NCBI GenBank assembly: GCA_963169875.1 | Contig: CAUJEL010000146.1 | Coordinates: 1 to 34,321 of the forward strand | Direction of reading: 5' to 3' | DNA from: Candidatus Zhuqueibacterota bacterium | GTDB taxonomy: Bacteria; Zhuqueibacterota; Zhuqueibacteria; Residuimicrobiales; Residuimicrobiaceae | DNA: 34,321 nt | In this document: piece by piece, positions 1,038 through 21,803 of the stretch | Layout: each line of letters starts with the position of its first letter | Position numbering within the stretch: the stretch's first letter is position 1 | Notes under the pieces: model-generated | What the model saw: only the letters and a program-made list of their open reading frames with translations | Databases searched by the model: none | What the model was told of the DNA's origin: nothing | Program-made: the position numbers and the translations under genes

Positions 1038-2663
1038 TCAAAATACGCGCCGCAACGTGCGCACCGCTTCCACCATCAGGATGGCAGCCAGTACAAACAG
1101 CACCATGGCGATGGCGCCAATGGTCGTCAAGCGATATTGCATGATGAGTTGGATCAACGCCCACACCGTCATCACGTTCATAAAAATCATCGGACCGATC
1201 ACATAAAATGTCTTCCGTCCCGTCTTCTTCAGCCACACCAGGATCACCAGCAGCGTCAGACCCGCCAGCAGTTGATTGGTGGCGCCGAACACCGGCCAGA
1301 TGGCTTTCCAAACTGGCAGGGGATTGCCGTGGACATCTTTCAGGGTGATCAGCACAAACACCAGCGGCATGAACAAAGTGGCCAAGGTCGACAAATAACG
1401 CGTCGATGTGCCCTTCAAATTGAAAAATTCCTCGAATATGTAGCGCCCCAGCCGCGTCGCCGTATCCAGGGTCGTGAGAATAAAAGTCGACAGCGCCAAC
1501 AGGCCGAACGAAAAACCGAGCTTGTGGGGAATGCCCAGGGTGGCGAAAAAATTCCCAATGCCGGTGCCGTAAATGACCAGAGGCACTTTGCCCGCCAGTG
1601 GATCGCCGTTGGGCAACATTGCGACGGTTGACAGCGCGATGACCGCCACCACGCCTTCGATGAGCATGGCGCCATAGCTAATGGGACGCGCATCTTTCTC
1701 CTGGTCGAGCTGCTTCGATGACGTTCCGGAAGCCACCACGGCATGAAATCCGGAGCACGCGCCGCAAGCCACGGTGATGAAAAGCACCGGAAAAAGAGCA
1801 CCCAGGGCGGGCGCATACCAGCCGGCAAAGGCGGTGTACTGCACCGTGTAGCCGCCGAAAAGGATGCCGACGAACCCGCCCAGGACCGATGCATAAAGCA
1901 GGTACGAAGAGAGATAATCGCGCGGCTGCAGCAGAATCCACACCGGCGTCGTGGAGGCGATGAACGCATAAACGATGAGCAAGACACTCCAGAACTTGGC
2001 CGCATCTGCGCCGGTGAACGACGAGACCGCCTCCGCATTCAGGGGTATGATATGCCCGATCCAGGTGGCGAGAAACATCAGCGGCACAAAGACAAGTGAA
2101 CTCCACAACAAGGGAATTTTCAAACGATAAAGAAAGATGCCAAAACCAATGGCCAAAACAATAAACAGCATCGATGAAGTGGCGACACCGCCATCCTCGA
2201 CAAAAGTCGTTGCGGTCAGATCGGTGAAAACCGTGAGCACATAGACCAGTGTCAGCCAGATGAACGACAAAAACAATTTGTAGGCCAGAGGCGACATGTG
2301 TTCGCGCGCAATCTCGGCGATGGACCGCGCCTTGTGGCGGATGGAGGCCATCAGGGAGGAGAAATCGTGCACGCCGCCGATGAAAATCGAACCGAGCACG
2401 ATCCAGATCAGCGCCGGGAGCCAGCCGAACGCCACAGCCGCGATGATCGGGCCCACAATGGGACCGGCGCCGGCAATGGAAGAAAAATGATGACCCAGCA
2501 GCACCGCCTTGGGCGCGGGCACCCGGTCGATGCCATCGTAATCGCTGTGGCTGGGGGTTTTATTGTCATTGTTCACAGAAAACTCCCGCTCCAGGAAGCG
2601 GCCGTAAAACCGGAACGCCAACGCAAACAAGACGATCGCAATCAAAAGGATATAAAACAGCAT
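1038..2663 (-). CDS. cstA: Carbon starvation protein CstA family transporter
   Basis: The 541-residue protein is hydrophobic almost throughout, with many membrane segments. The N-terminal region after the first helix contains the family stretch APKAVLLGHHFSSIAGAGP (about residues 50-70), followed by GPIIAA and GGVHDF. CstA proteins import peptides or pyruvate in enteric bacteria. This is the short form, against about 700 residues in E. coli, as seen in many non-enteric bacteria. ATG at 2663 has AAGGT about 7 bases upstream. The upstream neighbour is the saccharopine operon, from which it is separated by a strong terminator only about 20 bases before the start. No convincing promoter fits between that terminator and the gene. 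Substrate is inferred from family only. Confidence 0.93.
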   Translation of the reverse strand: MLFYILLIAIVLFALAFRFYGRFLEREFSVNNDNKTPSHSDYDGIDRVPAPKAVLLGHHFSSIAGAGPIVGPIIAAVAFGWLPALIWIVLGSIFIGGVHDFSSLMASIRHKARSIAEIAREHMSPLAYKLFLSFIWLTLVYVLTVFTDLTATTFVEDGGVATSSMLFIVLAIGFGIFLYRLKIPLLWSSLVFVPLMFLATWIGHIIPLNAEAVSSFTGADAAKFWSVLLIVYAFIASTTPVWILLQPRDYLSSYLLYASVLGGFVGILFGGYTVQYTAFAGWYAPALGALFPVLFITVACGACSGFHAVVASGTSSKQLDQEKDARPISYGAMLIEGVVAVIALSTVAMLPNGDPLAGKVPLVIYGTGIGNFFATLGIPHKLGFSFGLLALSTFILTTLDTATRLGRYIFEEFFNLKGTSTRYLSTLATLFMPLVFVLITLKDVHGNPLPVWKAIWPVFGATNQLLAGLTLLVILVWLKKTGRKTFYVIGPMIFMNVMTVWALIQLIMQYRLTTIGAIAMVLFVLAAILMVEAVRTLRRVF

Positions 2664-2682
2664 AAAACAACCTTCATCATTT

Positions 2683-2717
2683 AAAAAAAAGCCCTTTGCA
2701 GCAGTTGTGCAAAGGGC
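2683..2717 (-). terminator. Rho-independent terminator of the saccharopine operon
   Basis: Read on the minus strand, a perfect 10-bp stem GCCCTTTGCA/TGCAAAGGGC (2708-2717 with 2691-2700) and a 7-base loop are followed by eight T residues (2690-2683). It lies 23 bases after the stop of the saccharopine dehydrogenase gene and just before cstA. Confidence 0.9.
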
Positions 2718-2739
2718 ATGATTATTTCACTGGACCAGG

Positions 2740-4062
2740 CTAAAACGGACGATACCGGTCGACGAATTTGATCTTCATCGTTTCCAGCTCGTCCAGGACC
2801 GGCTCATAGATGCCCGGCATGACGGGAATCTGCACGCCGGTGAGCGTGATCTTGCCCTGATTCAGTAACTTGACCGCAATGGCAGCGGGCAGGCTGACCG
2901 TGCGGGCCATGGAGGTGTCGCCATGGGGAATGCCGTAATCAATCAGCAGGCTGGTGATGGCTTCTTTTTTCCCGCCCGGATATTCAGCGATAAATTCATG
3001 CTGCAGGACGATCATATCGCGTTCGCCCGGTTTGTAGTCCATCTTGTGCTCCATCAGGTAGGTCAGTGCATCGAGCACCGAGGGCGGGTCGCTCTTGACT
3101 TTTTCATTCGAGAAGAGTCCCAGCCATTCGAAACGGGACAGGATCGCATGCGATTCCGGAATGCCGAGGTGTTTGGCCATGGCCGATTTAACCTGATCCG
3201 CCTTGGCGTTGATCAACGAAGCGGTCAACTGCGCCCACGTCCAACCGAGTATTTCCGGCCGCTCGTCATCGTTGAGGAAGCCCAGGTTGACCACTTTTTC
3301 CAGGGTTTCGCACCAGCCCAGGTTGCGGAAGGTGCCGCGGAAAATCGTCTGCGCATCTTTCAAGCCGTAGAGCTCCTGATAAAGCATGGAATCGCGGTTG
3401 GGATAGACTTCGAGCTTGCCCAGGCCTTCCACTTCCTTGATGGATACAGTGCGGAAGAGATCCTTGTTTTCGATCTGCATGTCTTTGCCATTTTTCAAGA
3501 AATGGGCGGAATTGCGTCCGGCCAGCAGCACGCCGCGTGGACTCCATGAAAATTTATAGCCAAAGGGATTGTCATTGGCTTCGGGGGCAGGCAAGCCGCC
3601 GCAAACCGACTCGAAGGAAGTCACCTTGCCGCCTTTTTTCTCCACGGCGTGGATCATTTTCATCGCTGACATATGGTCGATGCCGGGATCGAGACCGATC
3701 TCGTTGAGGAAGAGCAAACCCTGGTCCTTGGCCTGTTGATCAAGCGCACGCATGGCCGGACTGACATAGGAAGTGGTCACCAGATGGGTTTTGTGTTTGA
3801 GGCAGAGCTCGGCCACCTGAAGATGATAGATCCAGGGCAGCAGACTGATGGCGACATCGCTCTCCTTAACCAGGGCTTCGAGCTTGTCCTTCTCCTGGAC
3901 CGTTGCCGCAATGGCGCGACCTTTGGGATGGCCTTCAATCAAGGCTTCGGCTTTGCTGACAGTACGGCTGGCAATGATCACTTCTGTTTCCGGTTGATCC
4001 AACAGATAACGTACAAGGGGCCTGGACACAAGACCAGCGCCAAGAACCAGAACCTTCTTCAT
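2740..4062 (-). CDS. Saccharopine dehydrogenase (glutamate-forming), AASS C-terminal type
   Basis: The 440-residue protein begins with an NAD(P)-binding Rossmann motif VLGAGLVSRPL (about residues 5-15). It continues with LLPWIYHLQVAELC, a GLDPGIDHMSAM segment and a CGGLPAPEANDNPFGYKFSW stretch, all typical of the Lys9/AASS saccharopine dehydrogenase that oxidises saccharopine to glutamate and aminoadipate semialdehyde. Size matches the C-terminal half of AASS. ATG at 4062 has AAGGAG about 7 bases upstream. It starts 11 bp after the lysine-ketoglutarate reductase gene, so the two form one operon that recreates the bifunctional eukaryotic enzyme as two polypeptides. Lysine breakdown is the likely direction, judged by the partner enzyme. 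A carboxynorspermidine or homospermidine synthase is excluded by the partner and motif set. Confidence 0.93.
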   Translation of the reverse strand: MKKVLVLGAGLVSRPLVRYLLDQPETEVIIASRTVSKAEALIEGHPKGRAIAATVQEKDKLEALVKESDVAISLLPWIYHLQVAELCLKHKTHLVTTSYVSPAMRALDQQAKDQGLLFLNEIGLDPGIDHMSAMKMIHAVEKKGGKVTSFESVCGGLPAPEANDNPFGYKFSWSPRGVLLAGRNSAHFLKNGKDMQIENKDLFRTVSIKEVEGLGKLEVYPNRDSMLYQELYGLKDAQTIFRGTFRNLGWCETLEKVVNLGFLNDDERPEILGWTWAQLTASLINAKADQVKSAMAKHLGIPESHAILSRFEWLGLFSNEKVKSDPPSVLDALTYLMEHKMDYKPGERDMIVLQHEFIAEYPGGKKEAITSLLIDYGIPHGDTSMARTVSLPAAIAVKLLNQGKITLTGVQIPVMPGIYEPVLDELETMKIKFVDRYRPF

Positions 4063-11238: not shown

Positions 11239-12357
11239 TCACGCCACGGACTCGTTGCGCTTTTCCTTCTCGCTGCAATTCATATAACCAATCACCTTGA
11301 TCCGGCATGGATACCCACCCTGTTGCACACTGCAATGTCCCCATAATCTGCAATGGATCGAACAGATCACTTTATTGTCCGCTTCGGAATCCGGTATCTC
11401 CGGCGTGGTAGAGATTGTGGTGCGGAAAGCCGGTGCGAGATACTTTTTCTGGAAAAAGAGGTGCTGGACGAGATGGCGGATATCTTCCGCGGCGCCGTGT
11501 TCCCGTCTGAGGATCAATTCGGGACGTCCCTCCTTGATGGCCAGGCGCAGGGCTTCGTCATAGTGGACGTGATGGAGATGATGAATATCCAGGCCAAGGA
11601 TATCATTTGCCGCGATGATAAGCGCCATGCCCTCTTCATAATCCTGGCGGGTTTCCAGCATATTCAGGACAACTTGGGGGCGGAACGCGGCAATTTCTTC
11701 TTCCCAGATGTCGATGGTGGGGTGCCCCAGCTGCGCGATCCGTTCAGTGAGGGCGCGCAAGGTCGGACCCGCGTTCAAATCCTGCAGGTCGAGATTGTCC
11801 TTCAGCACGTCATAGACTTCGGGCTGGGAGCGGAAGCGGCGGGTCAGGCGCCGGAAAAGGCCCAGCTTGATAAAGCTGTAACCATTCTGTATGGCCAGCG
11901 GTTCGGGGGTGATGACCACGACGCCGATGGGTGCAATGAGGAAATAGTCCAGTTCATTGAACGCGGTGCCTGCACCGATGTCGAGGAGCACATAATCCGC
12001 GTCGAGGCGGTTGAGGTGGCGGATGAGGCGGTATTTCATGTTAAAATTGATATTGGCCAGGCCCATGGCGTGGGAACTGCCCGAGAGCAGGTAGAGATTG
12101 GGCATGAAGGTGTCCAGGAGCAGGCGGTTGATATCGGGTTGGGTGCGAATGAGAAATTCACGAACGGTTGCCGGAGGGGATGGAATACCAAGGGCTTGAT
12201 GAAGATTGGCGCCGCCGAAATCGGCATCTACGACAACGGTTTTATGACCTTTCTGGGCGAGTGCGATGCCCATAGCGGCCGTCAACACCGTCTTGCCAAC
12301 GCCTCCTTTGCCGCCGGCGATGGCGATAATGAGGGGTTTTTCGGGTTTTGACTCGAT
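11239..12357 (-). CDS. MinD/ParA-like ATPase with a cysteine-rich tail and a probable AUC start
   Basis: A 372-residue ATPase of the MinD/ParA/FlhG class, which usually positions proteins or DNA on membranes or nucleoids. The deviant Walker A motif KGGVGKT (17-23), VVVDADFGGANLH (41-53) and YVLLDIGAGT are clear. The only canonical in-frame start is a GTG at 12288, inside the P-loop, which would remove the essential lysines. Upstream the frame stays open to a stop near 12398 with no ATG, GTG or TTG, but an ATC codon at 12355-12357 lies 6 bases after GGAGG (12364-12368). I therefore place the start there. The tail (332-361) has five cysteines and two histidines, suggesting a metal site. Its neighbours give no clue to the job; no flagellar gene is nearby. 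A one-base sequence error is the alternative. Confidence 0.8.
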   Translation of the reverse strand: MESKPEKPLIIAIAGGKGGVGKTVLTAAMGIALAQKGHKTVVVDADFGGANLHQALGIPSPPATVREFLIRTQPDINRLLLDTFMPNLYLLSGSSHAMGLANINFNMKYRLIRHLNRLDADYVLLDIGAGTAFNELDYFLIAPIGVVVITPEPLAIQNGYSFIKLGLFRRLTRRFRSQPEVYDVLKDNLDLQDLNAGPTLRALTERIAQLGHPTIDIWEEEIAAFRPQVVLNMLETRQDYEEGMALIIAANDILGLDIHHLHHVHYDEALRLAIKEGRPELILRREHGAAEDIRHLVQHLFFQKKYLAPAFRTTISTTPEIPDSEADNKVICSIHCRLWGHCSVQQGGYPCRIKVIGYMNCSEKEKRNESVA

Positions 12358-12463
12358 GATGCTCCTCCACCTGAATGCAAAACGTTGCCTGATCTGCTAA
12401 GCTGCTTGGGAGCGGAGATGAATGAGAGCGTCGACCGTTTGCCACAGGAACAGAGGCGTTACA

Positions 12464-12880
12464 CTAGCGGAACATGGCTTTAATGCTGCCCCAGGTCTGC
12501 CTGGCGGAGGAAATCTGTGGTGTCAGACACAGAATTTTGTCGTATTCGATCGAACTGCCGTCGAGCTGGATGAGTCTCAATTTGTAGTAAAAGTTGCGAT
12601 CCGTCTGCTTGAAAACGCTGTTATCTGTAAAGGCATAGGATTTTTCGCCGCTTTCATCGATCCTGGCCGTGACGTGACCGATGACCTCAAAGTCCTGATT
12701 GTTGAGACTGCGAAGGACTTGATAGCTGCGTAGATTGGTTTCAGCTGATACGACCCATTTCAATTCGACGCGATTGAATCCCGCTTCGCCTTGAAAGGTT
12801 GAGATGATGGCGCCGCCGAACAGCACCGATGTAAAAATCAACAGGGACACAGCTGCGATGAAGACAGGTTGCTTGAGCAT
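12464..12880 (-). CDS. Small secreted or membrane-anchored fibronectin-III-like protein
   Basis: The 138-residue protein has one N-terminal hydrophobic segment (about 5-25), either a signal peptide or an anchor. After it comes a single fibronectin type III-like beta domain: VELKWVVSAETNLRSYQVLRS, then FEVIGHV, YAFTDNSV and FYYKLRLIQLDG. Such domains are very common in surface proteins of FCB bacteria, usually near the C-terminus of larger proteins, so this one-domain form is short. ATG at 12880 has AGGAA about 7 bases upstream, and its own promoter lies 49-76 bases upstream. No type IX secretion tail is seen. The function is unknown; it stands alone between the ATPase gene and the divergently transcribed sigma factor gene. 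Confidence 0.8.
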   Translation of the reverse strand: MLKQPVFIAAVSLLIFTSVLFGGAIISTFQGEAGFNRVELKWVVSAETNLRSYQVLRSLNNQDFEVIGHVTARIDESGEKSYAFTDNSVFKQTDRNFYYKLRLIQLDGSSIEYDKILCLTPQISSARQTWGSIKAMFR

Positions 12881-21356: not shown

Positions 21357-21803
21357 TTACAGACTCAGCTTTTTGCGTACCATGTCGCTGACAACTTTGC
21401 CGTCCGCCCTGCCTTTGGTTTGCCCCATCACGATGGGCATCACCTTGCCGATGTCCTTCAGCGTTTGGGCGCCTGACTGGGCAATGGCAGCGTCAATAAT
21501 TTTCTCGACCTCTGCAAGGTCGAGTGCAGCGGGAAGATATTCCTGGATGACGACCAATTCGGATTCTTCTTTGGCCGCTAAATCCTCACGGCCGGCATCC
21601 CGGTACGCTTGAATGGCTTCACGACGCTTCTTGGCAGCGTTGGTAAGGACGCCCAACTCCTCATCTTCCGTCAAATCCGCGCGCTTATCAATGGCGGCGT
21701 CCTTGATCTGACCACGCAACAGGCGAATAGTGGATAAACGCTCCTTTTCACCCGCTTTCATGGCGGTCTTCATGTCTTCAGTAAGCCGGTCAAGAAGACT
21801 CAT
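21357..21803 (-). CDS. yqeY: GatB/YqeY domain protein
   Basis: The 148-residue cytosolic protein begins MSLLDRLTEDMKTAMKAGEKERL and continues TIRLLRGQIKDAAID, EYLP and a C-terminal DIGKVMPIVMG..GKVVSDMVR, all typical of YqeY. The domain matches the tail of GatB, where it helps tRNA-dependent amidation; the stand-alone role is not settled. ATG at 21803 has GGAGA 5 bases upstream. It lies 39 bp after rpsU on the same strand, a frequent arrangement, and a terminator follows. Confidence 0.94.
   Translation of the reverse strand: MSLLDRLTEDMKTAMKAGEKERLSTIRLLRGQIKDAAIDKRADLTEDEELGVLTNAAKKRREAIQAYRDAGREDLAAKEESELVVIQEYLPAALDLAEVEKIIDAAIAQSGAQTLKDIGKVMPIVMGQTKGRADGKVVSDMVRKKLSL

Follow-up and report, generated by a model that had tools for sequence, protein, structure and literature searches.

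Where does translation begin in a gene that offers no canonical start codon ahead of its own P-loop? This question is raised by a MinD-like ATPase gene on the minus strand of the window, i.e., the whole stretch of 34,321 nucleotides analyzed here (contig CAUJEL010000146.1 of a Candidatus Zhuqueibacterota bacterium). The reading frame is bounded upstream by an in-frame TAG (12397..12399) and ends at a stop codon at 11241-11239. On the minus strand it reads TAG(12399-12397) CAG ATC AGG CAA CGT TTT GCA TTC AGG TGG AGG AGC, then ATC(12360-12358) ATC(12357-12355) GAG TCA AAA CCC GAA AAA CCC CTC ATT ATC GCC, and continues ATC GCC GGC GGC AAA GGA GGC GTT GGC AAG ACG GTG TTG through the deviant Walker A motif KGGVGKT (12289..12309). 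The 36 codons from the TAG to the first canonical codon do not include a single ATG, GTG, or TTG. A preceding sequence-only reading had described a frame open to a stop near 12398, free of ATG, GTG, and TTG upstream of KGGVGKT, with two adjacent ATC codons of which the second (12355-12357) lies 6 nt past GGAGG. These statements are correct, the bounding codon being the TAG and the first canonical codon the GTG at 12288-12286. Its placement of the sole canonical codon inside the P-loop has to be amended, since this GTG (12286..12288) directly follows the Thr of KGGVGKT; a start there would remove the P-loop.

By simple arithmetic, 36 random codons lack a start with a probability of ~0.18, which by itself is not improbable. 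The missing canonical start gains its weight from homology (a MinD fold and an in-frame ortholog with 80% identity) and from a Shine-Dalgarno (SD)-ATC block that is kept in a second species.

Protein identity and gene neighborhood

Counted from the second ATC, the gene (11239..12357, minus strand) comprises 372 codons, from ATC 12357-12355 to the stop at 11241-11239. Its product matches the Pfam family CbiA (PF01656; E value 3.4e-16, 59.8 bits versus a cut-off of 25.4 bits) and PDB entries for MinD and FleN, starting from an E value of 6.8e-14. Based on the CbiA score above cut-off and the deviant Walker A motif KGGVGKT, the ATPase is assigned to the MinD/ParA (CbiA) superfamily. The resemblance to the MinD and FleN (FlhG) ATPases (PDB 1g3q, 3q9l, and 5j1j) covers the deviant Walker A motif and the P-loop core, residues 10-197. 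The protein differs from them in scoring far below the cut-offs of the curated NCBIfam MinD models (69.3 of 212.9 bits for TIGR01968 and 72.1 of 201.75 bits for TIGR01969), and in a C-terminal four-Cys motif.

This motif, C-x3-C-x5-C-x8-C (ICSIHCRLWGHCSVQQGGYPC; window positions 11239-11400, minus strand), is also present in the closest ATPase orthologs. It is common to most orthologs, the last Cys being missing in the one from the more distant family member G004, and it possibly represents a metal or Fe-S site. Because the motif is common to the closest relatives, the ATPase is placed, at the level of sequence comparison, in a separate subfamily of the MinD/ParA superfamily.

Upstream lies a co-oriented gene of 138 amino acids (12464..12880, minus strand), the stop codon of which precedes ATC 12357 by 106 nt. 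It did not match any family in Pfam or NCBIfam profile searches. The pair formed by this gene and the ATPase gene is kept in the same-genus genome G001 and in two more distant family members, G003 and G005.

The Shine-Dalgarno region and the two ATC codons

The 3' end of the 16S rRNA of the source genome (G000) reads GGATCACCTCCTTTCT and carries the standard anti-SD sequence. Therefore, the GGAGG at 12368-12364 is a true anti-SD match. It is part of the SD region AGGTGGAGGAGC (12361..12372, minus strand; GGAGG at 12364-12368), which forms a duplex with the 16S tail. Upstream of 12357, the energy of this duplex is -9.3 kcal/mol, a value reached by ~25% of start regions and by ~2.5% of random positions. 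GGAGG spacings of 5-8 predominate at the sampled canonical starts of the source genome, and a spacing of 6 is typical. Taken together, the spacing survey and the duplex energy place an SD sequence at native spacing in front of an Ile codon, the second ATC (12355..12357, minus strand), which is the most likely start codon. RNA folding of the start region did not give any signal for the source genome (z 0.43).

The first ATC (12358..12360, minus strand), which directly precedes the second, is an alternative start codon and would rely on AGGTG within the SD region. Both ATC codons are kept in G001, and the SD duplex upstream of 12360-12358 still amounts to -8.7 kcal/mol. But GGAGG is only 3 nt away from this codon, and GGAGG at a spacing of 3 was not found among the sampled canonical starts of the source genome. 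We therefore regard a start at the first ATC as unlikely. Entry through another frame, from the GTG at 12370 or a TTG near 12380 followed by programmed frameshifting, would make use of two out-of-frame codons that are indeed located near the block. However, no recognizable slippery site was found on inspection of this stretch and the mechanism is not needed, making such an entry extremely improbable.

Comparison with related genomes

The same-genus comparison is based on one genome, the MAG of bacterium UBA2214 (G001; DCUM01000123). The ortholog encoded there shares 80% identity with the ATPase along all 372 residues, without any change of frame in the N-terminal part. A nucleotide alignment revealed a 21-nt block, CAGGTGGAGGAGCATCATCGA (12353..12373, minus strand), that is identical in both genomes and spans the SD sequence and ATC ATC, while the flanking leader has diverged with mismatches and indels. 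Several canonical genes on the same contigs show a comparable conserved SD-plus-start footprint, e.g., GTTGGAGAGATCATG at 21803. If the block was instead read as codons (AGG TGG AGG AGC), it would need two AGG. Outside the block, AGG encodes none of the Arg residues of the ATPase gene in either species (0/24 and 0/26), and it makes up 16 of the 346 Arg codons in eight other genes of the window. Among degenerate codons of the ATPase gene with an identical amino acid in both species, 56% keep the same codon, so that all five degenerate codons of the block would match by chance with a probability of ~5% (0.556^5); this value counts against the reading as a ribosome-binding site, although the AGG usage carries more weight. 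In the simplest reading of codon usage and footprinting, the conserved block resembles a ribosome-binding site with ATC ATC behind it rather than coding sequence.

Two observations had been named in advance as speaking against an AUC start: an indel that joins the P-loop frame to the GTG at 12370, and relatives with an ATG at 12357. G001 has ATC at the latter position. An indel of the former kind is unlikely and was rejected, since the N-terminal region of the G001 ortholog does not change frame. A broader version of this concern is that an assembly or sequence error hides a canonical start. Both the source genome and G001 are MAGs, and they differ by 2 nt in length immediately ahead of the conserved block, at a place where an out-of-frame TTG aligns with an ATG of G001. 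But this difference is located in an otherwise diverged stretch, as expected for a non-coding leader, and the SD-ATC block is identical in the independent MAG. We consider such an error very doubtful.

The ATG of G001 mentioned above is in frame and precedes the second ATC by seven codons (MHRWRSIIDSK); it leaves some doubt on the AUC start. It lies outside the conserved block and is preceded by a weak SD sequence (-5.0 kcal/mol versus -9.3 kcal/mol for the ATC). The more distant family members add to both sides of this question. The ortholog in G005, which belongs to another genus of the same family, has an ATC that is just as far from the P-loop as in the source genome, with a moderate SD sequence (-7.8 kcal/mol), and also an upstream in-frame ATG (MLEGRLIES) with practically no SD sequence (-1.4 kcal/mol). 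The G004 ortholog can start only at an ATG that directly follows a TAA. Since this ATG lies two codons upstream of the ATC-equivalent position, a start near the ATC site is normal for the family. G003, a close relative of G005, has ATT at the equivalent site, but its copy is a decayed pseudogene with frameshifts and stops and counts little as a further witness for the start codon. At this locus (G003:C498, L053), the ATPase ortholog has decayed while the upstream gene remains intact.

These data could also be explained by an ancestral start at the upstream ATG that persists in G001 and was lost from the source genome, where the gene would be poorly expressed or decaying. The ATG codons of G001 and G005, which are separated by a gap of one codon, and the pseudogene in G003, which indicates that the gene is dispensable in the family, fit this scenario. 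However, the SD sequences favor the ATC sites over the ATG codons in both genomes, the G001 ATG is not part of the block, and the 372-codon frame is intact in the source genome and 80% conserved. The loss of an ancestral ATG is therefore quite unlikely in our judgment. An AUC start appears well supported in the source genus and possible in the sister genus represented by G005.

Probable AUC initiation, other non-canonical starts, and IF3

The claim of an AUC start at 12357, already made by the sequence-only reading, thus remains the best-supported one: the same SD sequence and ATC are found in a second species, the spacing is native, and other non-canonical starts, including that of infC, occur in the same genome and family. 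We consider it likely that this is a real gene whose product starts at AUC 12357-12355, with the SD sequence offsetting the weak codon. The AUC would be read by the initiator tRNA as fMet, giving the product fMet-ESKPEKPLIIAIAGGKGGVGKT..., and the strong SD sequence would partly compensate for the codon, so that a low output is to be expected. That ribosomes use the AUC, and the second ATC rather than the first, is what we infer from the evidence above.

In E. coli, AUU, AUC, and AUA initiate poorly, and IF3 discriminates against such codons. In agreement with this, IF3 excluded weak third-position pairs when codon-anticodon pairs were surveyed in vitro (PMC10158994). By analogy, IF3 may repress the AUC start of the ATPase gene as it does the AUU starts of infC. 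A dependence of ATPase translation on the level of IF3 is plausible, and a low, possibly IF3-responsive output would be expected. The likeness to the AUU/AUC starts of infC, the gene for IF3, consists of an Ile-codon start after a strong SD sequence, found within the same family. But infC regulates its own expression through its product, IF3, whereas the MinD-like ATPase lacks such a feedback loop. Any regulation of the ATPase through its AUC is therefore a guess, with low constitutive expression as the null expectation.

The infC start is ATT in G000, G001, and G004, and ATC in G003 and G005 (L050 and L049). All five are preceded by a GGAGG- or AAGGAG-type SD sequence (AAGGAG in G003 and G005). 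We also scanned ~1.7 of the 5.0 Mb of the source genome (about a third) mechanically for SD-preceded codons and then read the hits. By count, ATC is not strongly enriched among these codons: it made up 10 of 252 in one survey, two of them from the ATPase gene, and was low in a second. One ATC match was rejected, being the ordinary programmed frameshift of prfB; this gene (G000:C7, L062 near offset 309, minus strand) carries the usual CTT TGA site.

The additional non-canonical cases rest on protein homology and were judged singly. A LOG-family gene (TIGR00730, 152 bits versus a cut-off of 96; G000:C38, L094 12720-13301, minus strand) is without a canonical start. Its frame reads TAG GGG CAT GAG AAG GAG CGA ATT ATC GAA CGG AAA ATA GCG and continues GTA TAT TGT GCC, with only ATT and ATC available after AAGGAG. 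As judged from this frame, its start codon must be ATT or ATC; a close ortholog was not found within the family. hisA (G000:C24, L080 765-1499, plus strand) has a CTG start after AGGAGGCATT (AGGAGG), and the same codon is TTG in G001. A heptosyltransferase-family gene (PF01075; G000:C115, L186 about 2256-3260, minus strand) probably starts at a CTG after AAGGAG, its first ATG being inside a conserved N-terminal motif. On the basis of the infC, LOG-family, hisA, and heptosyltransferase cases, non-canonical starts appear to be part of the repertoire of this lineage, a statement on their presence rather than on their frequency relative to other organisms, the survey having covered the source genome alone.

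Standard gene callers do not recognize starts other than ATG, GTG, and TTG. Because of this limit, the ATPase gene would be called with a start past the P-loop and would look broken. To our knowledge, there are few documented examples of a natural AUC start in genes other than infC. The present case, from an uncultured lineage and with its ATC kept in a second species, would provide, along with the further non-canonical starts of the source genome, test genes for IF3 control beyond infC. Natural AUU starts outside infC have been validated, e.g., that of pncA (bbe22) of Borrelia burgdorferi by genetics, biochemistry, and structure; the protein was truncated in databases, and its fold depends on the longer form (PMC13398362). 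The ATPase gene, too, is a non-translation gene, with a probable Ile-codon start and an annotation that would be truncated. It differs in having AUC instead of AUU, and the evidence for its start is sequence-based. As read here, it makes a modest addition, with AUC and from an uncultured lineage, to the known class of AUU/AUC-started genes.

A fairly unlikely but more far-reaching possibility is that a handful of genes in this lineage have starts that are sensitive to IF3 or non-canonical in some other way, so that the level of IF3 would set the output of several unrelated genes rather than of infC alone. The candidates are infC (AUU), the MinD-like ATPase gene (AUC), the LOG-family gene (AUC/AUU), hisA (CUG), and perhaps the heptosyltransferase-family gene (CUG). 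The AUC of the ATPase gene could predate the split of the two genera, a possibility based on the SD-preceded ATC at the same site in G005.
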